This document shows, piece after piece, positions 6,198-43,986 of a stretch of 43,986 nucleotides of DNA. Below the pieces are notes generated by a model. It saw only the letters and a program-made list of their open reading frames with translations. It did not search any database and was not told the DNA's origin. The stretch's first letter is position 1, and every line of letters begins with the position of its first letter. Position numbers and translations under genes: made by a program. The stretch is taken from assembly GCA_027858735.1 (NCBI GenBank), contig JAQICC010000205.1:1-43986 (forward strand), written 5' to 3'. This DNA is from Salinivirgaceae bacterium. GTDB lineage: Bacteria > Bacteroidota > Bacteroidia > Bacteroidales > SZUA-534.

Positions 6198-6562
6198 TAC
6201 CTTACAACTTTATTTATTGCGGCTAATAGTTTCTCTGGTACAAAAGGTTTAATAATCCACCCTGTTGCACCTGCGTCTTTAGCTTCCATTTTTTTTGAAG
6301 TTTGCGATTCTGTTGTTAAAAATAGAATGGGCACAAATTTGTAAGCTTCATTCGCTCTAACATTTCTGATAAATTCAATTCCATCCATGTTGGGCATGTG
6401 TAAATCGGTAATAATTAAATCAAGTTTGTTCCCATCAAGGAATTTTAAAGCATCATGCCCATCAATACCTTTAAGAACTTCGTGACCCGCGTTTTCAAGT
6501 GTAAAGCTTACAACCTCCCGTATGCTTTCAGAATCGTCTACTATAAGAATTTTTTTTCCCAT
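6197..6562 (-). CDS. cheY: Chemotaxis response regulator CheY
   Basis: A 121-residue stand-alone receiver domain. The acidic pocket is in KILIVDDSESIREVV. The phospho-acceptor Asp is in DLIITDLHMPNMDGIEFI, the switch Thr is in ILFLTTESQ, and the conserved Lys is in WIIKPFVPEKL. TGWIIKPF is typical of chemotaxis CheY proteins. It sits directly before cheA (stop and start share one base) and 17 bases after the STAS gene, so it is the likely diffusible output of this kinase. No flagellar switch gene is present in the window, so its target is not visible. Confidence 0.95.
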   Translation of the reverse strand: MGKKILIVDDSESIREVVSFTLENAGHEVLKGIDGHDALKFLDGNKLDLIITDLHMPNMDGIEFIRNVRANEAYKFVPILFLTTESQTSKKMEAKDAGATGWIIKPFVPEKLLAAINKVVR

Positions 6563-6579
6563 TGTTAATGGATTTATAA

Positions 6580-6891
6580 TTAAATAATTGTATTGGCAAA
6601 TCCTGCTCTACTGAATAGCTCTGAAATTTCAATGTTTAAATCAAAATTTATATCTATCTCAATATTTGATTCATTGCAATTGTTTTTTAAAACGGCTAAA
6701 AGCTGAATGATTGAAATGTCGGCATCATCAACCTTTGTGAGTTCAATGTATATTTTTTTGCTTTTTTTAATTGCCGAATTAAGCTTTTTTTGAATTTCTG
6801 TTATGTTTGAAATGTTTAAATGCCCTTGTAATGAAATTTCAAGAGCCTTAGTTTCTTTGTTTTTGGTTGAAGTTATTTTATACTCATTCAT
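6580..6891 (-). CDS. STAS-domain protein of the chemotaxis operon
   Basis: A 103-residue protein with the STAS fold pattern: LEISLQGHLNISNITEIQKKL at the start, KKIYIELTKVDDADISIIQLL in the middle, and a C-terminal helix ELFSRAGFANTII. STAS proteins usually act as anti-sigma-factor antagonists or small regulatory partners. The loop that in SpoIIAA-like proteins carries the phosphorylated Ser/Thr (DSSG-type) here reads VDDADIS (54-60), with Ala in the likely acceptor position and Ser60 displaced, so phospho-switching may be lost or different. It is the first gene of the cheY-cheA-cheW unit, which points to a chemotaxis role; the function is otherwise unknown. Confidence 0.75.
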   Translation of the reverse strand: MNEYKITSTKNKETKALEISLQGHLNISNITEIQKKLNSAIKKSKKIYIELTKVDDADISIIQLLAVLKNNCNESNIEIDINFDLNIEISELFSRAGFANTII

Positions 6892-6964
6892 AAAAATGGT
6901 TATTAATGGTTTCTTTCAGCAAATAATATCATGCCATTATATAAGAAAATGTTTAAATTTTATC

Positions 6965-6984
6965 CCTGTCTACCGTCAGGCAGG
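6965..6984. repeat. Short CCTG/CAGG palindrome
   Basis: CCTGTCTACCGTCAGGCAGG is a 7-bp stem (one G-T position) with a 6-base loop. It lies in the 253-base gap between the STAS gene and the coiled-coil gene, where I find no other gene. Palindromes of this CCTGCCT-type are common interspersed elements in Bacteroidota genomes. Its GC content stands out from the surrounding sequence, so mobility is more likely than a terminator role. Confidence 0.5.
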
Positions 6985-7144
6985 CTTAAGTTCTAGTATG
7001 CACTTTTTTGAAATAATCTCGTTATCTTTTCAGTACGTAACGATGCTATGTCCTTCAAAAATCCTTAATATTTCTTAAAAATGCATCATAATATACTTAT
7101 AAAACAAAACTTATATAGTTTCTAAACTAAGTTATCACTTTTAA

Positions 7145-8950
7145 TTAAAATAATTCAATATCACCGTCATCCATGTCGTATGACGATTCATTATCTTTAC
7201 TTGATTTATCCTCTGAATTTTGGCCTACGTCGAAAAGTCTGGCATGCACGTCACGCTCGCTTTTCATGGTATATAAATCTTTAATTCTATTTAGATATTC
7301 TTTATTATCACCTAAGATATGTTTTAAAGAATCATAGTTTACAATTTGGTTAATGGTGTTAAGTAATGATACAATTCCTTCTACAGTTTCTTTAAAATAG
7401 GTATAATATTCAATTTTTTTAATTGATTGTGTAATTTCGTCCGATATATGAGTACTTAGTTTTGCATATTCTTTTGTTTTTTGTTTAATTTCTTGCGATT
7501 TCTCTGTTAAATCTTCTATTGAACTATTTTCAATATAATGGTTTTGGATATCGGGTTTAAAACATTTAATGATATTCAATAAGAAATCAAGGTTTTGCGT
7601 GATATTATTTAAGTGCGTTTTTAGTGAATTTGAATTTATTTGAATATCAGAAAATAAGTGTGAAAGTCGCCGCATCAATTCTATTCCAAATGATTTATCA
7701 TTTGCATCTATTAGTTTTTCAAATTGACGTACTTCGGCACGTAGTGTTTTCTCGCTTTGAAAAAGCTTATTGAAATTGATTTTTAAGGTGTTGTAGTCTG
7801 TGTCAAGGTTTTTAATTTTTGTGTCCGATTCCTCCCAATTGGTACCCAATAGTTGATAATGCTTTTCAAAAACATCCTGGGCAACAACTATCTGATTTAC
7901 AAAAGTATCCTCAAAGCTTTGTGAGTTTTTGTGAATAGAATTGTAAAGCTTATCCATTGATTTCATTTCATGACCCACTTCAATAAGTTGGTTTGTTATT
8001 TTTTCAATCGATGTTTGATAATCTTTATTTGTATATAGTAATTGCGCTACCTGAATGTCAGTTATCTCAGGTATTTTAACAATGATATTCAATTGATCGT
8101 CTTGACTAGGTTTATTTAAATCAATATCATTGATCTCTTTTATGAGTTCATTTTGAGAGCTTTGAATATGCTCCATTTTTTGCCTAATGATGTCATGATA
8201 TTGTATATTAGTAATGACTTCACCTAAATAAGCAAAACTTTTTTGGGTATGATTATTTAAAGAATTTGAAAGATTTTCAGGAAGATATTCCCCAAAGGAC
8301 ATCCGTTTATAGTTGTTTAGAATTTTTTTAAGTTCTTCTTTAAGTTCCGTGTTATTCAAATTTTCATTTAGGCAAGAATTGTTTTTAAGGTCTATAATTT
8401 GTTCCAATACAGAGTCGCTTTGTAAATTAATATTGTTAAGCTGGTTATGTATGTCTTCAACACCATTTTCAATTTTAGAAATGGATTTTTGAAGTTCTTC
8501 AGCATTTTTAAGGTCAATGTAGTTTAAATGCAATTTTAAGTTGGCCAGAATGTATTTAAGGGTTGTTAGGTTCTGCTTAAAATTATTTACAGGTACAACC
8601 AATAAATCAAACGATGAATAGATGCACGTTAAATAGTGTTGTATTTTTAGGATATTAGAATCGGTATCGTTTAAAAGTTGAATTTGTGAAGCGTTTTTTT
8701 CTTTTATCTCCTGATGAATGGTGGGTAAGTCGGTATTAAAAAACACCGCAATTGCATTATTCGCCGATGAGATTTCTTTTATATTACTGTAATATTGTTT
8801 TAGTAGTTTGTTGAAATATAAAAAATCTTTGGAGGATATAGTGTGTAAAGAACCAATTTTATCATCAATTGAACTTAAAGTGGCTACAATTTTTTCGCGT
8901 GGAAAATTATCAAGAAACTCATTAATTATATTACTATTGTTATGGGTCAT
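7145..8950 (-). CDS. Large cytoplasmic coiled-coil protein with a CheZ-like DxxxQ motif
   Basis: A 601-residue Asn/Lys/Ile-rich, almost wholly helical protein without signal peptide or membrane segment. It lacks the methyl-accepting receptor hairpin, so it is not an MCP. At 249-263 it reads IQYHDIIRQKMEHIQ. The D253-x3-Q257 spacing and surrounding pattern match the active helix of the CheY-P phosphatase CheZ (FQDLTGQVIKRMMD). A second conserved-looking helix near the end carries DLYTMKSERDVHARLFD. After a Ser/Asp/Lys-rich linker the protein ends DMDDGDIELF, an acidic, Phe-terminated tail like the CheY-docking tail of CheZ. It precedes the STAS-cheY-cheA-cheW genes on the same strand, and no other phosphatase is visible. 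A phosphatase or signalling scaffold role is inference. Confidence 0.7.
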   Translation of the reverse strand: MTHNNSNIINEFLDNFPREKIVATLSSIDDKIGSLHTISSKDFLYFNKLLKQYYSNIKEISSANNAIAVFFNTDLPTIHQEIKEKNASQIQLLNDTDSNILKIQHYLTCIYSSFDLLVVPVNNFKQNLTTLKYILANLKLHLNYIDLKNAEELQKSISKIENGVEDIHNQLNNINLQSDSVLEQIIDLKNNSCLNENLNNTELKEELKKILNNYKRMSFGEYLPENLSNSLNNHTQKSFAYLGEVITNIQYHDIIRQKMEHIQSSQNELIKEINDIDLNKPSQDDQLNIIVKIPEITDIQVAQLLYTNKDYQTSIEKITNQLIEVGHEMKSMDKLYNSIHKNSQSFEDTFVNQIVVAQDVFEKHYQLLGTNWEESDTKIKNLDTDYNTLKINFNKLFQSEKTLRAEVRQFEKLIDANDKSFGIELMRRLSHLFSDIQINSNSLKTHLNNITQNLDFLLNIIKCFKPDIQNHYIENSSIEDLTEKSQEIKQKTKEYAKLSTHISDEITQSIKKIEYYTYFKETVEGIVSLLNTINQIVNYDSLKHILGDNKEYLNRIKDLYTMKSERDVHARLFDVGQNSEDKSSKDNESSYDMDDGDIELF

Positions 8951-9094
8951 GAAAATGGTTTTAGGGTTAACCGAAACTTCATTTATTCAATGAATATAAT
9001 AATAATAATTCAATATATTTTATATTATGTTATTATTATCCATGATAAATAATTCATATATTGGCATGTTTATTATCAGTTAAAATCCTATTGA

Positions 9095-9484
9095 ATGTCA
9101 AAACCCTTATTGCTTGTTGTCGACGATATTTTTGTAAATAGAATATTATTGGCAGAAATAATTTCAGAAATAAATTGTGAATGTAAATTAGCATCAAATG
9201 GCAAAGAAGCCATTGAAAAGTTGCGGACTCAAAAATTTGATATGGTATTGATGGATATTGAAATGCCAGTGATGAATGGATTGGAGACCACAAAGTATAT
9301 CCGGACAGAAATGGAGGAGTCTATTGCCAATACGCCCATTGTAGCTCTTACCGCCCATAATCCGGATGATTTTTTTGATGAGTTTAATGCGGCAGGCTTC
9401 GATGAATTGGTTACAAAACCTTATTTGATAAATAAGATTAAAGATATTGTAGAGAGATTTGTAGTTAAAAAAAGCCGCATTTAG
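9095..9484 (+). CDS. Single-domain response regulator
   Basis: A 129-residue receiver domain with no output domain: LLLVVDDIFVNRILLAEII (acidic pocket), phospho-acceptor D54 in VLMDIEMPVMNGLETTKYI, switch Thr in IVALTAHN and Lys in VTKPYL. The VNRILLAE and MDIEMPVMNGLE patterns are those of receivers usually attached to hybrid kinases rather than of CheY itself. It is divergent from the coiled-coil gene (144-base AT-rich gap) and stands at the edge of the chemotaxis locus, so it could be a second output or a phosphate sink. Its last codons form the left arm of a terminator. Confidence 0.9.
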   Translation: MSKPLLLVVDDIFVNRILLAEIISEINCECKLASNGKEAIEKLRTQKFDMVLMDIEMPVMNGLETTKYIRTEMEESIANTPIVALTAHNPDDFFDEFNAAGFDELVTKPYLINKIKDIVERFVVKKSRI

Positions 9485-9496
9485 CGGCTTTTTTTT
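9467..9496. terminator. Bidirectional intrinsic terminator
   Basis: AAAAAAAGCCGC, a 5-base loop, then GCGGCTTTTTTTT. It overlaps the last codons of the response regulator gene and lies 17 bases from the converging transketolase stop codon, so it can end transcription from both sides. Confidence 0.9.
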
Positions 9497-9512
9497 AATT
9501 TAAAACTTTTAT

Positions 9513-11552
9513 CTATTTTATTTCTTCTAAATAAATTTCAACTTGTTTTTTTACATTTTCAGCGGTATAGCCAAATTTTTCATCCAAAACTTTATAATTA
9601 GCTGAGTAACCAAAGTGATCTAGTCCGATTGATTTACCAAGAGGACCTACAAGGCCTTTTAATGTTGATGGTAGTCCTGCAGTTAATCCTAATGTAGGGA
9701 CATTTTTTGGTAAAATATCTTGCTGATATTCATTGCTTTGAGTTCTGAATAGTCCTTCAGAAATAGCAGAAACAATTTTTATTTTCAGTCCATTGTCTTG
9801 TTCAAGTAATTTTGCGCCACCAATTAGTGTTGATACCTCCGATCCGTTTGCCACTAGAATAATATCAGGATTATCAGCATCGATAACTGTATAAGCCCCT
9901 TTTTCCGCCTTAAGTGCACTTTCATACTTTGTCGTACCTTCAACAGGTAGATCGTCAATATTTTGGCGAGACAAAATTAAAGCTGTTGGTGTTTTTGTAT
10001 TTTCAAGAGCCATTTTCCAAGCAACCGTAGTTTCATTAGAATCGGCTGGTCGAAGTACTAATAAACTTGGATCACCCGAATGATTTTTAAGTTGTTCAAG
10101 CAGTCTAATTTGAGCTTCTTGCTCAATTGGTTGGTGTGTTGGGCCATCTTCTCCAACTCTAAACGCATCATGTGTCCAAATGTATTTTACGGGCAATTCC
10201 ATAAGTGCCGACATTCTAACAGCCGGTTTCATGTAATCTGAAAACACGAAAAATGTTCCGCAAGCTGCAAATACACCACCATGACTTACAATACCGTTGC
10301 AAATTGCAGCTAAAGTTAATTCAGCTACTCCGGCCTGTAAAAATTTACCGCTAAAATCACCTTTTTGCAATGCTTTGGTATATTTTAAATAACCATCAGT
10401 TTTATCTGAGTTAGATAAGTCGGCCGATGCAACAATCATGTTGTCAATGTTTTTTGCATACTCACCTAAAACAGTAGCCGATGCTGCACGTGTTGCATTA
10501 TTCTCTTTTTGTTTAATTGAAGCATAGTCAATAGTTGGAACCTGACCAGCTAAATAATTTTGTAATTTTTCTGCTAATTCAGGGTTTTGTTTTTCCCAAT
10601 TTGCTTGAATAGCTCGTTGCTCTTTTACAGATGCAGCTTTTTTCTTGCTTGCATCTTCATATATTTCAGCAACTTCTGGGAAAATAATAAATGGATTGCT
10701 CGAATTGCCACCTAAATTTTCAATGGTTTTTTCAAATGAAGCGCCAGCTGCCGAAATGGGTTGACCATGTGTTGAGCATTGACGTTCAAAATTGGTGCCA
10801 TTTGGAGTTAAAGCTCCTTTTCCCATAATGGTTTTTCCAATAATTAGCGTTGGTTTTGCCTTTTCAGCAATAGCTTTATCAAGTGCATTGCGAATTTCGT
10901 TGACATTGTTACCGTTAATGGTAATTACGTTCCATCCCCAAGCTTCATATTTTTTTGCTGTATCTTCAGATGTTACAGCATTGGTATCGGTTGATAATTG
11001 AATATCGTTTGAGTCGTAAAACATTATTAGGTTTGATAACCCTAAGTGTCCTGCAATTCGTCCTGCACCTTGCGATATTTCTTCTTGAATTCCACCGTCT
11101 GATATAAAAGTGTAAGTTTTATGAGCCATCCACTCGCCAAAGCGAGTTGCCAAAAAGCGTTCTGCAATTGCAGCTCCTACAGCCATAGTGTGTCCTTGTC
11201 CTAAGGGGCCAGATGTGTTTTCAATGCCTCTTTTAATATCACGTTCAGGATGTCCTGGAGTTACGCTACCCCATTGGCGGAAATTAGCAACATCTTCCAT
11301 GCTAAAGGTTCCGGTTAGGGCCAACTGAGAATAAAGCATTGGTGACATGTGCCCAGGATCAAGATAGAATCTGTCGCGAAAGTCCCATGAACGATCGCTG
11401 GGGTCGTAGTTTAAATACTCAGAGTAAAGAATGTTTATAAAATCGGCACCACCCATAGCTCCACCAGGATGACCTGATTTTGCTTGCTCTACCATTGCAG
11501 CTGATAAAATACGAATATTGTTTGCTGCTTTGTCTGCTGTTTTGTAACTCAT
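9513..11552 (-). CDS. tkt: Transketolase
   Basis: A thiamine-diphosphate enzyme of the non-oxidative pentose phosphate pathway that moves two-carbon units between ketoses and aldoses. From the ATG at 11552 it has 679 residues, the usual length. Visible motifs: SGHPGGAMGGADF near the N-terminus, GPLGQGHTMAVGAAIAERF, the cofactor-binding SDGGIQEEISQGAG region with DSNDIQ, and in the pyrimidine domain THDAFRVGEDGPTHQPIEQ with catalytic Glu and His residues. A TTG six codons upstream is a weaker alternative start. It is a single gene, convergent with the response regulator. A CAAAAATA sequence at 11617-11624 reads TATTTTTG on the coding strand and is a possible -7 box. Confidence 0.96.
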   Translation of the reverse strand: MSYKTADKAANNIRILSAAMVEQAKSGHPGGAMGGADFINILYSEYLNYDPSDRSWDFRDRFYLDPGHMSPMLYSQLALTGTFSMEDVANFRQWGSVTPGHPERDIKRGIENTSGPLGQGHTMAVGAAIAERFLATRFGEWMAHKTYTFISDGGIQEEISQGAGRIAGHLGLSNLIMFYDSNDIQLSTDTNAVTSEDTAKKYEAWGWNVITINGNNVNEIRNALDKAIAEKAKPTLIIGKTIMGKGALTPNGTNFERQCSTHGQPISAAGASFEKTIENLGGNSSNPFIIFPEVAEIYEDASKKKAASVKEQRAIQANWEKQNPELAEKLQNYLAGQVPTIDYASIKQKENNATRAASATVLGEYAKNIDNMIVASADLSNSDKTDGYLKYTKALQKGDFSGKFLQAGVAELTLAAICNGIVSHGGVFAACGTFFVFSDYMKPAVRMSALMELPVKYIWTHDAFRVGEDGPTHQPIEQEAQIRLLEQLKNHSGDPSLLVLRPADSNETTVAWKMALENTKTPTALILSRQNIDDLPVEGTTKYESALKAEKGAYTVIDADNPDIILVANGSEVSTLIGGAKLLEQDNGLKIKIVSAISEGLFRTQSNEYQQDILPKNVPTLGLTAGLPSTLKGLVGPLGKSIGLDHFGYSANYKVLDEKFGYTAENVKKQVEIYLEEIK

Positions 11553-11850
11553 TTTAGTTTTTTTTATCAATTTTAAATCAAATTCATCGATTTAAACCAA
11601 TCTTGTAAAATCACTGCAAAAATATCTTTTATTTGCATACCATCAATTATATAATATCATTTTGTCAATATTGTTATATTTTAAGTGTTATTTGGCATAA
11701 TATGAATATATCAAAAGTGAATAAAATTAGTTGCATTAGCAATATAGTGCATAATGAAAAATGCTGAAATACAGGAGTGTATAATAAGGTATGGGTGTGG
11801 ATAAAACTAAAATGTCCAAATTGTATTTATAGTATTTAAAAGCTAAATAG
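11553..11850. other. Intergenic region upstream of transketolase
   Basis: About 300 AT-rich bases between the transketolase start and the stop codon of the broken DUF427 gene. Apart from the possible transketolase -7 box at 11617-11624 (minus strand) I see no gene, RNA or strong repeat here. Confidence 0.5.
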
Positions 11851-12286
11851 TTATTCTGAAATCTTTGCTCCTTTCCAAAACGCTACATAGTCGGTTATAT
11901 GTTTTGCATCTTCAAAAGGAATTGGGTAATACCAAGCGGCATCAATGTTAATTTGGCCATTTACTGCAAGGCTATAGTATGATGCTTTGCCTTTCCATCC
12001 GCACATTGTGTGGGTGCACGACAAATTTCCCTAAATCGAAAAATATTGGCTTTCGTTATTCTACCCCGACCCTAAAGGGAGTCAACAAAAGCCAATATTT
12101 TTCGAAGTCCCCTTTAGGGGATCAAGGGGTAAAAAAAGGGAAATTTGTCGTACACCCCATTGTGTGAGTTTTGCTGGGGTTTAAAAATTTTTTATTTATT
12201 GATGATGGTGGGAAATAGTGATTTCCTTCAACAATAACTGTTTTATCACTCTCAGCAATAATTTGTTCGTTCCAAATGGCTTTCAT
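11851..12286 (-). pseudogene. DUF427-family gene interrupted by a MITE-like insertion
   Basis: Read on the minus strand, 12286 starts MKAIWNEQIIAESDKT, continues through GNHYFPPSSINKKFL and is cut after SKTHTM. The reading frame then enters inserted DNA and stops at 12122-12124. The rest of the family sequence resumes beyond the insertion as CGWKGKASYYSLAVNG, then DAAWYYPIPF and YVAFWKGAKISE, and ends at 11851. Removing the insertion plus one copy of the duplicated target (154 bases) leaves 282 bases, a perfect 93-residue DUF427 protein. The two halves show no other damage, so the disruption looks recent. A truncated 54-residue product could still be made. DUF427 has no firmly known function. 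Confidence 0.9.
12012..12157. mobile_element. MITE-like non-coding insertion with 20-bp terminal inverted repeats
   Basis: The ends are GGGTGCACGACAAATTTCCC and its complement with one mismatch (GGGTGTACG...). The element is flanked by a direct repeat, CATTGTGT(G), at 12004 and 12158. An inner 17-bp perfect inverted repeat, CGAAAAATATTGGCTTT, lies at 12037-12053 and 12088-12104, with CCCTAAAGGG-type sequence between and outside it. The element is about 146 bp, too short for a transposase, so it would need an enzyme supplied in trans. It splits the DUF427 gene. The 8 or 9 base target duplication is ambiguous by one G. Confidence 0.85.
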
Positions 12287-12389
12287 AATTCGTTTGTTAG
12301 ATGAATATTTTAAACAATTATTTTATGCTTTTGTTGAAGAGTGTTTTTTGTACAGAAACCTGACAATTAATTTTAAAAGGCGATATTTT

Positions 12390-12420
12390 TTTGCATAAAA
12401 AGTAATTAAACATATTTTTG
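12390..12420 (+). promoter_or_regulatory. Bacteroidota-type promoter of the START-domain gene
   Basis: TTTG at 12390-12393, a 19-base spacer, then TATTTTTG at 12413-12420 match the phylum's -33 TTTG and -7 TANNTTTG consensus exactly, 22 bases before the ATG. Confidence 0.7.
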
Positions 12421-12442
12421 TGGTCGATTTAAAAGTTAAAAT

Positions 12443-13090
12443 ATGTTAAATGTTTTTTTCAAATTTCTATTAACTGTGTTAATAGCCTCCACTTCAAGCT
12501 TTATTTTTGCTTCATATTACGACGAAGGATCAAGGTCAACTTGGGAAGTTGTTAATGAAGAAAACGGCATTCAAGTTTTAGAACGTTGGGTTACCAATGA
12601 CAAAAATCTTAAGGTTAAAGAACGTACAGGAAAAATGACATTAAATTGTTCCATTGAAGAGGTAATTAAATTAATAGCAGATGTTGAGCGAACACATTTA
12701 TGGATGTGCGATGTAGAATCGGTAAAAAAACTTAAAACCCTTAGCGATAATACTTGGTTTGTACACACCGTATTGGATACTCCATGGCCTTTTAGTAAAC
12801 AAGATATGGTGTCTAAGTATCAAATTGAAAGAGATGATGCAAACCATAGAGCAGTAGTTTTTATTAATAAAGAAGATAAGCTCTTACCCCCACAAAAAGA
12901 CATGGATCGCTTAGATACATTTGATGCAGAATGGGTGATTGAACAAGTAAAAGAAAACAAGGTTAAGGTAACCTTTACAACGAAGTCAACGCAACCTCCA
13001 AAGTATCCTTCATGGGCACAAGACCCCGTTGTGCGTAAGGTGTTTTTTAGTAATCTAAGAAATTTTAAAAGGGTTATTAATAAAGCGTAA
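12443..13090 (+). CDS. Secreted START-domain (SRPBCC fold) lipid-binding-like protein
   Basis: A 215-residue protein with an N-terminal signal peptide (FFKFLLTVLIASTSSFIFA, then SYYDEG). It is followed by a single START-type domain: WEVVNEENGIQVLERW, NCSIEEVIKLIADVERTHLW, LDTPWPFSKQDMVSKY and the C-terminal helix RKVFFSNLRNFKRVI. DTPWPFSxRD is the recognisable START signature and forms part of the hydrophobic cavity. Such proteins bind lipids or other hydrophobic ligands; the ligand cannot be told from sequence. It has its own promoter and terminator, so it is a single-gene unit. Confidence 0.85.
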   Translation: MLNVFFKFLLTVLIASTSSFIFASYYDEGSRSTWEVVNEENGIQVLERWVTNDKNLKVKERTGKMTLNCSIEEVIKLIADVERTHLWMCDVESVKKLKTLSDNTWFVHTVLDTPWPFSKQDMVSKYQIERDDANHRAVVFINKEDKLLPPQKDMDRLDTFDAEWVIEQVKENKVKVTFTTKSTQPPKYPSWAQDPVVRKVFFSNLRNFKRVINKA

Positions 13091-13108
13091 GAAACACACA
13101 ATGTACAG

Positions 13109-13140
13109 AATGCCAATCTATTAAAGCTTGGCATTTTTTT
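13109..13140 (+). terminator. Intrinsic terminator of the START-domain gene
   Basis: AATGCCAA, an 11-base loop, TTGGCATT and a run of T, starting 19 bases after the stop codon. Confidence 0.85.
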
Positions 13141-13155
13141 GTTTAAATATTCCGA

Positions 13156-13211
13156 AACTTATAATTAAATTAAATAACTTACAAATAAGTTTGATAACTT
13201 AATATTAAGTT
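13156..13211. promoter_or_regulatory. Three phased operator-like dyads upstream of blaI
   Basis: Three 16-base dyads start at 13156, 13176 and 13196, exactly 20 bases apart: AACTTATAATTAAATT, AACTTACAAATAAGTT and AACTTAATATTAAGTT. The half-site is AACTTA/TAAGTT; the second and third have perfect half-sites and the first has one mismatch. A spacing of two helical turns would put bound dimers on one face of the DNA. They overlap the promoter of the BlaI-like gene, so autoregulation by that repressor is the natural reading (inference). Confidence 0.75.
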
Positions 13212-13220
13212 GTAGTTTTG
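13190..13220 (+). promoter_or_regulatory. Promoter of the blaI-blaR1 pair
   Basis: TTTG at 13190-13193, 19 bases, TAGTTTTG at 13213-13220: an exact Bacteroidota promoter. Operator dyad 2 touches the -33 element and dyad 3 fills the spacer, so repressor binding would block polymerase. Confidence 0.7.
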
Positions 13221-13249
13221 TTTTGCTGATTAATTAAAACTCAATAGTG

Positions 13250-13627
13250 ATGATAACTTTAACAAAAGCTGAAGAACGGATAATGCAAATATTGTGGAAC
13301 ATAAATAAAGGATTCGTTAAAGATATTCAAGTTGAATTTCCTGATCCTAAACCGCCCTACAATACGGTTTCAACAATTGTTAGAGTATTAGCGAAAAAGG
13401 AAATAATAGCATTTAATAAATATGGAAATACCTATGAGTATTTTCCACTTATCTCGAAAGAGGCGTATAGTGAATCGCAAATGAGAAATTTGGTGAAGAA
13501 TTATTATAACAATTCATTTAAAAAGGTGGTGAACTTTTTTTCTGAAAGTAAAAACCTTGATGTGAATGAGCTTGATGAAGTATTAAAAATGCTTGAAGAG
13601 TTAAAGGAGAAGAAAAAGAATTCTTGA
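13250..13627 (+). CDS. BlaI/MecI/CopY-family transcriptional repressor
   Basis: A 125-residue winged-helix repressor. ITLTKAEERIMQILWN is the family start, KPPYNTVSTIVRVLAKKEII is the recognition helix region, and FNKYGNTYEYFPLISKEAY is the wing. The C-terminal helical part (about 75-125) provides dimerisation. Family members bind dyads as dimers and are cleaved after a BlaR1-type membrane protease is triggered. A GTG directly before the ATG is an alternative start. It is followed after 64 bases by a BlaR1-type protease gene, and three phased dyads lie upstream, so it should repress its own operon. No beta-lactamase or other target gene lies next to it. Confidence 0.93.
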   Translation: MITLTKAEERIMQILWNINKGFVKDIQVEFPDPKPPYNTVSTIVRVLAKKEIIAFNKYGNTYEYFPLISKEAYSESQMRNLVKNYYNNSFKKVVNFFSESKNLDVNELDEVLKMLEELKEKKKNS

Positions 13628-13691
13628 TTATTTTGAACAAATGATTTATCCACTACTGGTTTATGAATAGGTGGGGTTATATGAGATAATA

Positions 13692-15731
13692 ATGGCAAAA
13701 TTTATTCTATACTTATTTGAATCAGGGCTGTGTTTAACACTGCTGTATATGGTTTATTTTCTGTTTTTAAGAAAAGAAACCTATTTTAACTTCAACAGAA
13801 TTTACCTGTTGGGCATTATGGCTTTAGCTTTAATAATTCCTGTAGTTCATATTACAATTGCGGTTACAGCAAAAGACAATATTGAAGAGACTTTTCATGA
13901 TATTGGTAAATTACGAAGTTATTATACGGAGTTTGTGGCAATGGGTGATGCAGAGTTTGGGCGAGAGAAGTATCGAAATTACCCGGTAGCAACTTTTGAA
14001 GAAAATTATTATTATGCAAAGGATAATGAGAAGGCTAACAGACTTTTAAAGGATGAAACAGGTGGTGAAGGGGCAATAAATTCAAATACAAAATCTTCTA
14101 AAATAAATCTCTTAAAACTTATAATAATAGTATATCTGTTAGGAGTTTTGTTTTTTTTAGTGCGCTTAATTGTGTTGCTCACTTGGTTAGCAAATACGGT
14201 TAAGAGTAATCCTAGGCAAAGGCACAAAAATTACAAACTCGTTCTAATGGAAAAGGAAGTACCGCCTTTTTCATTTTTCCGTTACATTTTTGTGACAAAG
14301 GAAGCTACTCAGCTCAATCAATTTGAGCAAGTTCTGGCACACGAGAAAGTTCATGTTGGGCAAATGCATTCGCTCGATTTGATTATAGCTCATGCCATTA
14401 CAGTTTTTCAGTGGTTTAATCCCTTAGTTTGGAACTTGCAAAAGGCAATAAAAACAACACACGAATACATTGCCGATAGCAAAGTGGTGAATCAGGGCTT
14501 TGAATTATTTGATTATCAATCATTACTATTGAGTCAATTGGTCAGCATCCAATCAGTAGAATTGGTAAACAATTTTAATTTAATATCCATTAAAAAACGT
14601 ATAGCAATGATGACAAAAAGTAAATCGCGGTTTTCCGCAAAGCTAAAAGCGCTTATAATTATACCAATGGCGCTGGTTACCTTCTTTTTATTTGCCGATA
14701 TGACAATAAAAAGTCCGGTACTAAATTTCACAAATTTTTCTTCGGCAAAGGTTTCAAATCTAGATGGAATTTGGGAAAATAGCTCTGATACTTTTGGTAA
14801 ACTGCTTCTTTTTAAAGGGAGTAATTTATCGATTCTTGAGAGTTCCGATAAGGTTGATGTAATTGACCTTGATATTGTAATAAAAGATGAGGTTTTTGAA
14901 TTTAATAGATTTGGAAAGGCGAAAGAATCCTTAAAGTATCAACTTTCTGGAAGCGAATTGAAAATTTGGTGGACTGATAACGAATACGCTGTTTATAAAA
15001 AAACACATTTTAAAAACTCTTCTGATGCATTTACGCCAAAAGAAGCTGGAAATATCAAATTGCCGATGGCTGAATATGCCAAGATTCTTGAAAAACCCAA
15101 TTTGGTGATTAACGTATACGTATATTCCGATAAATATATAGTAGAAGATGTGGAATGCAAACTGGCTAATTTGAAAGAAGTATTGAGTAATAAATTTACC
15201 GGCTTTAATAAATTAGACTGGCCTTTTATTACTGCAAGATTGGTGGTTGATGAGGATACTGAAATGAAATCGGTTAATGCATTGAAGCAGGTGATGAGAG
15301 AGATATCATTACTTAGGGTTTCATATGGAAGTTTTCCTAAAAGCGGAGCTTCTGAGCTGCAATTTCATGCATCAGGTTTAACCAAAATGTTACCACCCCT
15401 TGGCGCTGAGGATATTGCACGGGATGAAATTGAAGAAAGAATTTTTGATATTGTAGATGGTGATGATTTGAATTTAAAGGCTAAGGAGCTAAGAGCATTT
15501 GTCGAGAATCATCCGGATTATATAATGGTGTATCAGAACAAGAATAGCACATTGTATGGTAACTATATTGCAGCCAGTGATATGGTTTTTAAAGTGTTTT
15601 ATGGTCTGAGAAATGAATATACTCAAGCAAAATTCAATTTGAAATATATCGATCTTCCTAAAAACCTGCAAAAAGAAGTACGCAAGAAATATCCAATGCG
15701 ATTATCAGAAACTAATTCTGACGAAGAATAA
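13692..15731 (+). CDS. BlaR1-type M56 membrane metalloprotease with C-terminal ExbD-like domain
   Basis: A 679-residue membrane protein starting MAKFILYLFESGLCLTLLYM. There are several membrane segments (about 1-25, 35-55, 145-170 and 320-340). A cytoplasmic zinc protease part has the HExxH motif at 217-221 (LAHEKVHVGQ), followed by WFNPLVWNLQKAIKTTHEYIADSKV with the third ligand Glu. The extracytoplasmic C-terminus is not a penicillin-binding sensor. It has a beta-rich region (WENSSDTFGKLLLF...) and then, at about 468-550, an ExbD/TolR-like pattern (LVINVYVYSDKYIVEDVEC ... ALKQVMREISLLRVSYG). The signal is therefore probably not a beta-lactam; the real one is unknown. It presumably inactivates the upstream BlaI-type repressor. 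A GTG at 13671 is a less likely start. Confidence 0.88.
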   Translation: MAKFILYLFESGLCLTLLYMVYFLFLRKETYFNFNRIYLLGIMALALIIPVVHITIAVTAKDNIEETFHDIGKLRSYYTEFVAMGDAEFGREKYRNYPVATFEENYYYAKDNEKANRLLKDETGGEGAINSNTKSSKINLLKLIIIVYLLGVLFFLVRLIVLLTWLANTVKSNPRQRHKNYKLVLMEKEVPPFSFFRYIFVTKEATQLNQFEQVLAHEKVHVGQMHSLDLIIAHAITVFQWFNPLVWNLQKAIKTTHEYIADSKVVNQGFELFDYQSLLLSQLVSIQSVELVNNFNLISIKKRIAMMTKSKSRFSAKLKALIIIPMALVTFFLFADMTIKSPVLNFTNFSSAKVSNLDGIWENSSDTFGKLLLFKGSNLSILESSDKVDVIDLDIVIKDEVFEFNRFGKAKESLKYQLSGSELKIWWTDNEYAVYKKTHFKNSSDAFTPKEAGNIKLPMAEYAKILEKPNLVINVYVYSDKYIVEDVECKLANLKEVLSNKFTGFNKLDWPFITARLVVDEDTEMKSVNALKQVMREISLLRVSYGSFPKSGASELQFHASGLTKMLPPLGAEDIARDEIEERIFDIVDGDDLNLKAKELRAFVENHPDYIMVYQNKNSTLYGNYIAASDMVFKVFYGLRNEYTQAKFNLKYIDLPKNLQKEVRKKYPMRLSETNSDEE

Positions 15732-42182: not shown

Positions 42183-43172
42183 TTATACTGCTGCTGCTTT
42201 CTCAAATATATTTTCGTATAAATCTACTTCCATAATTAGTTTCTTCACCAAATCATCTACTCCTTGTTTTAATTGTTTTGAACCATTTCGGAATGAATCC
42301 AGATTCGAATGTTCTAGTAATAAATTGTTATCAGGATTCCTTAAACTTGGAGCAACATAAGGATTTTCAACAATTTTTTTTAAAAATAAGCTAACCTCAA
42401 GTAAAAGAAAAAGTAATTGTCCAGAGGGTTTTGATAATGTAAAATTATCCATTGCGTATATTATACAAGTAATTTGATGTCCAGTTAAACATATTGGATC
42501 AATAGAGTCAGTTTTTATGCTTTTTAGAATTCGGATTAAATTTTTCGTATTCCCATGGGTTTGCCTGTCTTTTTTTTGCACTTCCGTTATCATTTTTATT
42601 GGGTTTGATGTGCATAAAGACCTTGATTGGTAATTGAGTAATTTAATTTCATTGTTAATGGGGAAATCTCCGGAGGCCTTATCGTCGTTTGTAAGGAAAT
42701 AACCAAAGTAATAGCAAAAATTACAAGGTTTGGATGGAATAGAAAGCTTGATTGCGAGAGGTTGGGAATCATCAAGCAATGCCTCCGGAAATTTATTTCT
42801 TAATACTATTTTAGTAAATTCTCTTAGTTGAATTAATTCTTTAAGTTTTGATAATTCGTTTTGGTCTTTGTTTTCATTAGTTTCTTTTAATACGATTAAA
42901 AGATCGGCGGTTTCATCTTGGTTAATGTATGTATTATTGGCAATGCCACCAATATTCTTTATTTCAACTAGGATATTTTCTTCAAATAAATCACTCTGAA
43001 TAATCTGTCCCATTGCAATAGCAGTTTCTTGGTATATTTCAGTTATTACCTTTTGAACGGGAGTCAAAGCTTCAATTGAATATTTAAGCCAACATTCTTT
43101 TTTGCTGTCAGTTTCATCAACTATTAACTTGCGTTGATTTAATTTCTCCATATGTTGAATATAGTTGAGCAT
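42183..43172 (-). CDS. Unknown protein coupled to double-glycine peptides; weak nucleotidyltransferase-like pattern
   Basis: A 329-residue soluble protein I cannot place in a family. The middle (about 70-96) reads VEIKNIGGIANNTYINQDETADLLIVL. This resembles the GSxxxxT...DxD start of nucleotidyltransferase folds, but with Gly for Ser and without the first Asp. NTKNLIRILKSIK and a helical C-terminus (about 220-325) fit the helical half of such enzymes. If the resemblance is real the active site looks degenerate. Cysteines at 150 and 153 (PCNFC) are notable. Its ATG lies 3 bases after the stop codon of peptide 1, so it is translated with it. A partial copy lies behind peptide 2. Likely role: modification, immunity or regulation of the peptides (inference). 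Confidence 0.8.
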   Translation of the reverse strand: MLNYIQHMEKLNQRKLIVDETDSKKECWLKYSIEALTPVQKVITEIYQETAIAMGQIIQSDLFEENILVEIKNIGGIANNTYINQDETADLLIVLKETNENKDQNELSKLKELIQLREFTKIVLRNKFPEALLDDSQPLAIKLSIPSKPCNFCYYFGYFLTNDDKASGDFPINNEIKLLNYQSRSLCTSNPIKMITEVQKKDRQTHGNTKNLIRILKSIKTDSIDPICLTGHQITCIIYAMDNFTLSKPSGQLLFLLLEVSLFLKKIVENPYVAPSLRNPDNNLLLEHSNLDSFRNGSKQLKQGVDDLVKKLIMEVDLYENIFEKAAAV

Positions 43173-43175
43173 AGC

Positions 43176-43319
43176 TTATTTATTTTTTTCATCTTCTTCA
43201 TCATCAGGTGGGGTCTCCATAGTTCCACCCTTAATAAGAATCAATTCTTCGTTTGATAACTGTGTAAAAATTTCTGTATCTCTTTTTTTACTAGTATTTT
43301 TAACAAGCAAGTGTTTCAT
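43176..43319 (-). CDS. Double-glycine precursor-like peptide 1 (47 aa)
   Basis: A short gene encoding MKHLLVKNTSKKRDTEIFTQ, then LSNEELILIKGG, then the possible core TMETPPDDEEDEKNK. The LS-x-x-EL-x-x-(I/L)KGG segment is the leader end of double-glycine natural-product precursors widespread in Bacteroidota, in which a C39-type peptidase cuts after GG. The core would be a very acidic 15-mer without Cys. It has the same leader pattern and core start as peptide 2 (GT-x-ETPPD) and an almost identical upstream sequence. Directly followed by the 329-residue gene. No peptidase, exporter or radical SAM gene lies inside the window; they may lie beyond the right edge. Confidence 0.75.
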   Translation of the reverse strand: MKHLLVKNTSKKRDTEIFTQLSNEELILIKGGTMETPPDDEEDEKNK

Positions 43320-43327
43320 TTTTTAAA

Positions 43328-43370
43328 ATATTAGTTGTGTTTATTAATTAATGCAAAAAAAAGGTAAAAT
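43328..43370 (-). repeat. Duplicated upstream region of peptide 1 (copy 1)
   Basis: About 43 bases in front of peptide 1 are nearly identical to 43616-43658 in front of peptide 2. They share an A-tract with GGTAAAA, the palindrome ATTAATTAAT and TAGTTGTG. On the coding strand TTTG followed 20 bases later by TAATATTT could be a shared promoter. Confidence 0.7.
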
Positions 43371-43451
43371 GCAATCTTTTTTGCTGTCAGTATCATCAAC
43401 TATTAACTTGCGTTGATTTAATTTCTCCATACGTTGAATATCGTTGAGCAG
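43371..43451 (-). pseudogene. 5-prime remnant of a second copy of the 329-aa gene
   Basis: These 81 bases align without gaps to the first 27 codons of the gene at 42183-43172, with about six mismatches. The start codon is CTG instead of ATG. After codon 27 the sequence changes abruptly into the upstream region of peptide 1. From an internal ATG (43430) a 28-residue fragment, MEKLNQRKLIVDDTDSKKDC plus eight residues, could be made, ending at 43344. It shows that the peptide-plus-gene unit was duplicated in tandem and one large gene copy was deleted. Confidence 0.85.
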
Positions 43452-43456
43452 TTATA

Positions 43457-43606
43457 TTAAAAGTCCGAGTTAGATTCATTTTCACACTCATCGGGAGGAG
43501 TTTCAGTAGTGCCTCCTTTTAAAACATTCAATTCATTTAGAGATAGTTTTATAAAAACTTCGAAATCTGTTTTTTTACTTGTAGCTTTAAGTTTCAATCG
43601 TTTCAT
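43457..43606 (-). CDS. Double-glycine precursor-like peptide 2 (49 aa)
   Basis: Encodes MKRLKLKATSKKTDFEVFIK, then LSLNELNVLKGG, then the possible core TTETPPDECENESNSDF. Leader pattern, GG site and core start match peptide 1. The two differ mainly in the last ten residues; this core holds one Cys and ends in Phe. It is followed by only a remnant of the partner gene and may be co-transcribed with peptide 1 and the intact 329-residue gene. Confidence 0.75.
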   Translation of the reverse strand: MKRLKLKATSKKTDFEVFIKLSLNELNVLKGGTTETPPDECENESNSDF

Positions 43607-43615
43607 GATTATTAA

Positions 43616-43658
43616 ATATTAGTTGTGTTTATTAATTAATGCAAAAAAAGGGTAAAAC
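43616..43658 (-). repeat. Duplicated upstream region of peptide 2 (copy 2)
   Basis: Near-identical partner of 43328-43370, at the same place relative to its peptide gene. The next 94 bases to the divergent gene show nothing recognisable. Confidence 0.7.
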
Positions 43659-43752
43659 GTAATCACCTAAAACGAACTATTTTTTAAAATAATTGTTAAG
43701 GTGTTGATATACAGGACTAAAAAATTTATTAAAAATCACGTATTTTAATATT

Positions 43753-43986
43753 ATGTTTAATAAAATATGTATCCTTATTTTAATTTTTATTGAGGTTTAT
43801 CAAACAAATGCTCAATCTAATTTAGATTCTATTTCTAAGGATATTAGAAAAGATATTCAGGTTTTTCAGATTTCAAACCAAAAGAAATATTTACATGCAT
43901 TTATTTCAAAAAAACTTTATGAGTTTGATTCAAAAAGTGATGCTGAATATAATCCAAAGGATTTATATTCATATTATCTTTATATT
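43753..43986 (+). CDS. N-terminal part of an exported protein, cut by the window edge
   Basis: An open frame of 78 codons runs off the right end. It begins MFNKICILILIFIEVYQTNA, a plausible signal peptide cleaved before QSNLDS. The mature part is helical and rich in Lys, Ser and Tyr (DIRKDIQVFQISNQKKYLHAF). I do not recognise a family. It is divergent from the double-glycine peptide genes and could be part of their cluster (for example a secretion or sensor component). Confidence 0.65.
   Translation, partial: MFNKICILILIFIEVYQTNAQSNLDSISKDIRKDIQVFQISNQKKYLHAFISKKLYEFDSKSDAEYNPKDLYSYYLYI

Follow-up and report, generated by a model that had tools for sequence, protein, structure and literature searches.

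Results

The stretch of DNA analysed here (the window; 43,986 nucleotides) makes up all of contig C121, so that no sequence continues it directly; its genome (G000; 6.0 Mb) comprises 452 contigs. Read from its right end, the last 2 kb hold a 78-codon plus-strand gene start, a short gene (pepB), a remnant of a longer gene that we call X, a second short gene (pepA), and gene X itself, which is convergent with an acyl-CoA dehydrogenase gene. The features are as follows:

42183 to 43172, minus strand: gene X, 329 aa, a CD-NTase relative that has lost catalytic acids one and three and is predicted to be inactive
43176 to 43319, minus strand: pepA, 47-aa GG-leader peptide precursor, predicted core TMETPPDDEEDEKNK
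43341 to 43378, minus strand: pepA element, a degenerate copy inside the duplicated flank, upstream of pepA
43359 to 43451, minus strand: gene X remnant, 31 matching codons of the X start between the peptide genes, a partial tandem duplication
43457 to 43606, minus strand: pepB, 49-aa GG-leader peptide precursor, predicted core TTETPPDECENESNSDF
43629 to 43666, minus strand: pepB element, GTGATTACGTTTT-N12-CATTAATTAA, a putative promoter; the same type precedes the sigma gene in relatives
43753 to 43986, plus strand: TPR-CHAT start, the N-terminal 78 codons with a signal peptide by hydropathy, cut at the contig end

Both short open reading frames (ORFs) that a first-pass annotation had placed here are present on the minus strand. 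Their leaders end in LSNEELILIKGG (first peptide) and LSLNELNVLKGG (second peptide), and an ending of the form L..(E)L..(L/I)(K/R)GG is that of C39-type leaders. The predicted cores carry charges of -5 (pepA) and -6 (pepB), the latter with one Cys. When the 30-80 aa ORFs of the window and of 38 other CHAT loci were scanned, 3910 in all, only pepA and pepB matched the leader and core motif, which was derived from these two peptides themselves, so that the scan speaks to rarity and not to function. Against curated profiles, pepB scored 19.8 bits for TIGR04149 (rSAM-modified RiPP), below the cut-off of 25, and pepA gave no match; pepA was in turn a near-miss to TIGR01847 bacteriocin_sig (14.1 bits against 15.7).

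Direct repeats of 79 nt (95% identity) and 56 nt (91%) around the peptide genes indicate that a peptide gene and the start of X were duplicated. The duplicated operon described in the first pass is consequently a real duplication, but a partial one, the upstream copy retaining only about the first 31 codons of X. Between the two copies the X start is 94% identical and the peptide ORFs are 65% identical, i.e. the copies differ at 35% of peptide nucleotides against 6% in the X start, in agreement with the earlier description of divergent peptide tails. The homologous locus of G005, with the same layout as the window (peptide, X remnant, peptide, X), shows 85% identity between copies for the X start and 75% for the peptide ORFs (differences of 15% versus 25%). 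Substitutions between pepA and pepB are unevenly distributed: codons 30-39, encoding KGGTxETPPD, contain 7 synonymous differences and 1 non-synonymous difference, bearing out the suggested conservation of the GG and the core start, while codons 1-29 and 40-47, compared position by position, contain 4 synonymous and 19 non-synonymous differences. From this one gene pair, the GG and core start thus appear to be held and the rest to be freer to change. Two other matches in the same genome were rejected: a DNA match in an AT-rich stretch of contig C140 beside a LytTR-like ORF, and one on contig C432 among hydrogenase/NADH-type genes (genes named by eye).

Gene X was identified in five of the 20 family genomes, counting that of the window itself, and its profile detected only the window's own genome among 295 sampled across the order. 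A contig search with the X protein alone gave no match, and a search with an alignment returned the same four other loci only: JAUXEM010000065.1 and JAEINW010000012.1 (Salinivirgaceae), DOTG01000038.1 (Marinilabiliales) and PHDD01000008.1 (Bacteroidetes HGW-Bacteroidetes-4). The carriers are G000, G001, G002, G005 and G007, the last four with complete loci. All four complete loci share one layout, in which the TPR-CHAT gene is divergent from a GG peptide gene (two in G005) that is followed by X, and a sigma and an anti-sigma gene lie convergent to the CHAT gene (sigma / anti-sigma-TPR / TPR-CHAT <-> GG peptide(s) -> X).

A peptide profile recovered seven strong members (at least 76 bits) in exactly the five X-carrying genomes, the next match among the 20 genomes scoring 16 bits, and CHAT matches above 1000 bits were confined to the same five of the 20 (next, 219 bits). 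As both profiles were built from these same loci, their informative part is the absence elsewhere. Weak peptide-profile matches in loci L145 and L134 are not GG peptides. The search for related peptides and neighbourhoods proposed at the first pass therefore yielded seven peptides, in five of 20 family genomes, in a single layout. GG, F18 and L21 are invariant in all seven aligned peptides, as expected for the GG-leader secreted type to which the first-pass annotation had assigned them, and the tightest shared part is KGGTxExPP[DE]. The seven cores (TMETPPDDEEDEKNK, TTETPPDECENESNSDF, TDEIPPEDEQPKKV, NDEVPPEEEEGKATD, ETPPDKEIEEEVAGDVK, TEEQPLENDEGDYNE and TKELPPEEDEEDQATTTAG) have net charges of -3 to -7 and one Cys between them. 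The two ORFs of the window are genuine GG-leader precursors of short (14-19 aa) acidic peptides.

The idea of a natural-product cluster with adjacent maturation enzymes was not supported: Pfam searches of seven neighbouring genes in G002 and inspection by eye of the four homologous loci revealed none. Specifically, no radical SAM/SPASM enzyme and no ATP-grasp ligase (the graspetide test) were found in either survey, and the lanthipeptide test found no LanB/LanC or LanM among the seven G002 neighbours, with one Cys in the seven cores. TxETPPD resembles the microviridin motif TxKxPSD, a reading dropped since no ATP-grasp ligase was seen. Of the exporter and radical SAM genes expected nearby, none was seen beside the peptides in the four homologous loci; C39 and HlyD genes adjoin a GG peptide in a second family, f180 (below). 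The 18-kb stretches of the four complete loci contain no C39 exporter. C39 proteins are encoded elsewhere in all five cassette genomes and in five of the 15 others of the family, a count that is weak evidence because C39 exporters are common. In G002 a C39 exporter lies about 16-18 kb from the cassette. Two further GG-leader peptides, with cores beginning LWGW and LWLW, lie upstream of a C39 exporter in the same genome (L184, G002:C40, 9745-10155), about 20 kb off the cassette. Separately, the window's genome holds a lanthipeptide-like cluster (L087, G000:C84:18000-33211, 6280-14519) comprising a GG peptide with a Cys-containing core, LanB/LanC-like ORFs and an HlyD-like protein (by eye), and a C39 exporter (by profile).

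The 78-aa fragment at the window's end aligns with positions 1-80 of the TPR-CHAT profile (23 bits, E 1e-9 in a one-sequence search); a pairwise BLASTP against one orthologue was not significant (E 0.62). Contig C348 of the same genome covers profile positions 89-852, with the first 88 absent, and the ends of C121 and C348 do not overlap. Judged from these complementary positions, C348 probably holds the rest of the window's TPR-CHAT gene. In the complete loci the protein has 844-864 aa and runs from a hydrophobic N-terminal segment through TPR-like helices to a CHAT domain (PF12770, above the cut-off in all four at E 2e-56 to 3e-55), with the His/Cys dyad motifs LHLAMHT and LSACNTG in all four and in C348. 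The C-terminus is formed by a hydrophobic segment and a basic tail, and from hydropathy the CHAT domain would face the periplasm. A predicted structure has pLDDT below 50 over most of the CHAT part, and one CHAT protein scanned against PADLOC gave no match. Two of these genomes also carry CHAT proteins of about 930-970 aa in tandem, two or three to an array (L061, G005:C36, 3402-12094; L060, G000:C264, 5042-10812); no anti-sigma-like ORF or GG peptide was found within those stretches.

Beyond the CHAT gene, all four complete loci encode a sigma-like protein and, overlapping it, a protein with a central TM-like segment and a TPR-like C-terminus, for which position, overlap and architecture suggest an anti-sigma (inhibitor) role. 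The four sigma proteins score 34.5-36.1 bits (E 5e-9 to 1.4e-8) against the sigma70-ECF model TIGR02937, whose cut-off of 42.9 is exceeded by the f180 sigma (63.8 bits). The TM segment of the anti-sigma-like protein is weakly hydrophobic in the window's family (0.93-1.15) compared with f180 (1.6-1.83). In G001 (L016, 3243-4898) two extra ORFs lie between the anti-sigma and CHAT genes, and the larger of these matches Peptidase_C10 with a Spi inhibitor domain. Relatives of the anti-sigma protein occur in 20 of 38 other CHAT loci, which were selected among the top-ranking matches when 395 Bacteroidia genomes were searched. Not all of these relatives adjoin CHAT, contig ends truncate several of the loci, and a plausible GG peptide was seen in only two. 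CHAT/anti-sigma pairs thus do not need the peptide, and CHAT plus anti-sigma looks like a wider pair to which GG peptide and X may be additions. In the window's own genome an 80-aa C-terminal piece of the anti-sigma protein (profile E 3.5e-27) lies beside a transposase-like ORF at a contig end (L027, G000:C348, 2504-3751), and no sigma gene was seen in G000; the locus may be damaged there, possibly by IS disruption, or the assembly may instead be broken.

A second lineage was identified in f180, where four genomes (G601, G478, G447 and G580) of 12 in its order have a close relative of the f180 CHAT protein. In G601 and G478 a GG peptide gene directly precedes the genes for a C39 peptidase-ABC exporter and an HlyD protein; CHAT, anti-sigma and sigma genes lie alongside, with a small HTH gene between the peptide-exporter group and the CHAT gene. 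The peptide differs from those of the window's family (MKGTFxSLSxxELxNVRGGLMDGxxKPPP...). The G447 parts are divided between two contig ends, C1 with peptide, C39, HlyD and the start of a secreted-type TPR-like protein, and C69 with the CHAT end, anti-sigma and sigma; the G580 contig starts 540 nt before CHAT, leaving the peptide side out of view, and the peptide profile had no match elsewhere in that genome. No gene X was seen in the f180 loci. By gene content, f180 is a second linkage of a GG peptide with CHAT and sigma, one that supplies the exporter missing beside the window's peptides.

The upstream regions of the peptide genes have in common a GTGATTACGTTTT-N9 to N12-ATTAATA-like sequence, and a similar element precedes the sigma gene; such a bipartite, promoter-like element is common to sigma and peptide genes in three of the four complete loci of the window's family and in two of three f180 loci. 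For the window's family we ran over each locus a two-block matrix trained solely on peptide upstream regions of other genomes, its blocks having been chosen by eye after the sigma upstream regions were seen. Of about 36,000 positions, the sigma and peptide sites took the first two ranks in L016, L017 and L018; in L015 (G002) the peptide site ranked 3 and the sigma site failed, at rank 34. In the window the pepB element was the best of about 88,000 positions (23.5 versus 14.2 for the next), and the pepA element fell outside the top 10, a match 7 nt away ranking 10th. In ungapped within-genome comparisons, null windows as good numbered 0 (G002), 4 (G001), 0 (G007) and 13 (G005) per 1000; the corresponding f180 values, 38 (G601) and 99 (G478), are weak. 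An f180 11-mer, GGTAACCTTTT, occurs twice in each of L124 and L125, one copy preceding sigma and the other the peptide, with GAATA 11 nt after all four copies, against an expectation of about 0.003 per locus and none in 34 control CHAT loci (514 kb). Two copies lie before sigma in L127, and the 11-mer is absent from L123 and from L185, the G447 peptide locus. The GGTAAC-N16-GAATA arrangement is spaced like an ECF promoter. At the sigma gene, only a few bases separate the end of the element from the start codon (Met aligned between homologues), so that a transcript begun there would be leaderless or the element may be an operator and not a promoter. Most simply read, the sigma and peptide genes are under common control, probably that of the sigma factor encoded in the locus.

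Little was found for X with Pfam. The X protein matches the PADLOC cyclase model PDLC00807 (E 6e-32; three homologues, 1e-37 to 1e-41) and the STING-associated CdnE structures 6wt9 (E 1.3e-17, the closest solved) and 6wt8 (3.2e-10). Its AlphaFold2 model is weak (pLDDT 57), with Foldseek placing the same structures first (7e-8); VIA gave Z of about 13 at an rmsd of about 14 A over 190-199 residues for the CdnE structures, and Z 11.7 at 3.5 A over 130 residues for DncV. In G000, G002, G001, G007 and G005, respectively, the first catalytic Asp is replaced by T, K, T, T and K and the third catalytic acid by C, C, C, Y and C, the second Asp being kept. All three acids are kept in the seven PDLC00807 relatives compared from other Bacteroidia, a count that omits two of nine relatives (L169, where a patatin-like ORF had been taken, and L170, whose cyclase is more distant and retains SDVDI). 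Given this loss in all five proteins, X is predicted to be a pseudo-cyclase that would make no cyclic nucleotide. Foldseek also returned MiD51, a non-catalytic nucleotide-binding member of this fold. In G005 the X gene (L018, G005:C319, 7824-8839) is broken into frames of 142 and 194 aa, representing either a pseudogene or a sequencing error in this MAG. While X resembles the STING-associated CdnE proteins in sequence and fold, it differs in lacking two of the three catalytic acids and in being paired with a peptide and CHAT, and no STING or other Cap effector was seen in its locus; its neighbours are the peptide, CHAT and acyl-CoA dehydrogenase genes, PADLOC having been run on the X proteins and one CHAT protein.

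Discussion

The gene content, the shared upstream element and the loss of the catalytic triad, all seen directly in the sequence, are best explained by an autoregulated sigma circuit to which the peptides would belong, with the exported peptide as signal or output and the CHAT protease acting on the anti-sigma factor as the switch. We hold this reading tentatively, at a little short of an even chance, our confidence having been lowered by the abutment of the element on the sigma start codons. An ECF-like sigma factor, held by the TM/TPR anti-sigma protein, would drive its own gene and the peptide gene via the shared element. The signal peptide and C-terminal TM helix of TPR-CHAT (from hydropathy) would put its caspase-like domain and the TPR part of the anti-sigma protein on one side of the membrane, where TPR-CHAT could act as a site-1-like protease releasing sigma, by analogy with Csx29, Csx30 and CASP-sigma. 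Export of the peptide and cleavage after the GG would fall to a C39 exporter, encoded in trans in the window's family and next to the peptide gene in f180. Once outside the cytoplasm, the peptide would most likely act on its own circuit, as a ligand or regulator of TPR-CHAT, with feedback as the result. X, with its broken triad, may act by binding in place of cyclic-nucleotide synthesis.

More specifically, the locus may encode a Bacteroidota peptide pheromone, an acidic peptide that leaves through a C39 exporter and either activates or restrains a TPR-CHAT protease anchored in the membrane. The protease would cut the TPR anti-sigma protein and so free an ECF sigma factor to induce its own gene and that of the peptide, with a dead CD-NTase recruited as an intracellular peptide- or ligand-binding regulator. 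In this full form the proposal is speculative and, in our estimate, has well under an even chance of being right.

The RseA/DegS type combines a protease outside the cytoplasm, a membrane anti-sigma factor, an ECF sigma factor and autoregulation, all of which are also proposed here; it differs in that the protease here is a CHAT (caspase-like) protein and that a GG peptide gene has the sigma gene's upstream element. Anti-sigma proteolysis of this type is named in PMC10028731, which describes, for type III-E CRISPR systems, how cleavage of the inhibitor Csx30 by the CHAT protease Csx29 (TPR-CHAT) relieves inhibition of CASP-sigma. As in that system, which is the experimental precedent, a TPR-CHAT protease is encoded with an ECF-like sigma factor and a putative inhibitor: TPR-CHAT shares one locus with sigma and a putative inhibitor in all four complete loci of the window's family and in G601 and G478. 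The present systems differ in the N- and C-terminal hydrophobic segments of CHAT, in a TPR-type anti-sigma factor carrying a TM-like segment, and in the addition of GG peptides and a CD-NTase relative. Inspection by eye of the ORF lists for the four loci revealed no Cas gene, and a PDB profile search returned no Csx29 match at E <= 0.01. GG-leader peptides are exported by C39 (PCAT/AMS) transporters (PMC6363468); the present peptides likewise end their leaders in GG and, in f180, adjoin a C39 exporter and HlyD, and they differ in their acidic, Cys-poor, proline-kinked cores, in the lack of a visible maturation enzyme and, in the window's family, in an unlinked exporter. Among the open-licence literature matches listed, none described a CHAT/sigma locus with a GG peptide or with a pseudo-CD-NTase, and none gave a signal for CHAT/TPR anti-sigma pairs. 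The parts all come from known families, and it is their combination that looks new.

The most serious competitor is that the peptides are bacteriocin- or RiPP-like effectors induced by sigma under envelope stress, with X or another protein serving in immunity or modification and CHAT/sigma as mere regulator. GG leaders with C39 and HlyD partners in f180 are typical of bacteriocins, and the near-miss of pepA to bacteriocin_sig, the element common to sigma and peptide genes, and the divergence of tails between duplicates would all fit. Set against this are the lack of a modification enzyme among the seven G002 neighbours scanned, the very acidic character of cores that hold one Cys in seven, which is unlike the bacteriocins known to us, and the presence in G000 of a separate, lanthipeptide-looking cluster (by eye) with its own C39 exporter. 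We consider an effector role unlikely, though by no means remote, and favour a signal or regulator role over an antimicrobial one at somewhat less than twice the likelihood.

The peptide might otherwise be a protein-level substrate or pseudo-substrate inhibitor of CHAT, its GG and acidic stretch constituting a recognition site in place of a C39 export signal. That KGGTxExPP[DE] is the tightest shared part, that TPR-CHAT is divergent from the peptide in all five genomes, and that no exporter is adjacent in the window's family are compatible with such a role, but the f180 peptides directly precede C39 and HlyD, the leader ending is of C39 type, and CHAT is predicted by hydropathy to lie outside the cytoplasm, which together make it improbable. 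A CBASS-type defence, in which X would make a cyclic nucleotide that activates the CHAT protein, with the peptide as accessory, is suggested by the matches of X to PDLC00807 and to STING-associated CdnE; we regard it as highly improbable given the loss in all five X proteins of two catalytic acids that all seven compared relatives keep, the signal peptide of CHAT (hydropathy), and the lack of a PADLOC match for the one CHAT protein scanned. Finally, short ORFs are common in AT-rich DNA and the X copy between the peptide genes is a truncated remnant, but a chance or decaying origin of pepA and pepB is ruled out, as nearly as can be, by seven conserved peptides at the same position in five genomes and by the near-synonymous change across the GG/core motif.

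Taken together, these findings suggest that the conserved gene group is a previously undescribed peptide-linked signalling circuit of some environmental bacteria. CHAT recurs beside TPR anti-sigma-like proteins in Bacteroidia, and the short peptide gene that shares an element with sigma in two families makes the proposed circuit concretely and cheaply testable. If the proposal is true, the conserved pseudo-CD-NTase would exemplify how an enzyme of immune type can come to serve in a non-catalytic role, and peptide signalling and caspase-like proteolysis would be extended to a Gram-negative surface circuit.
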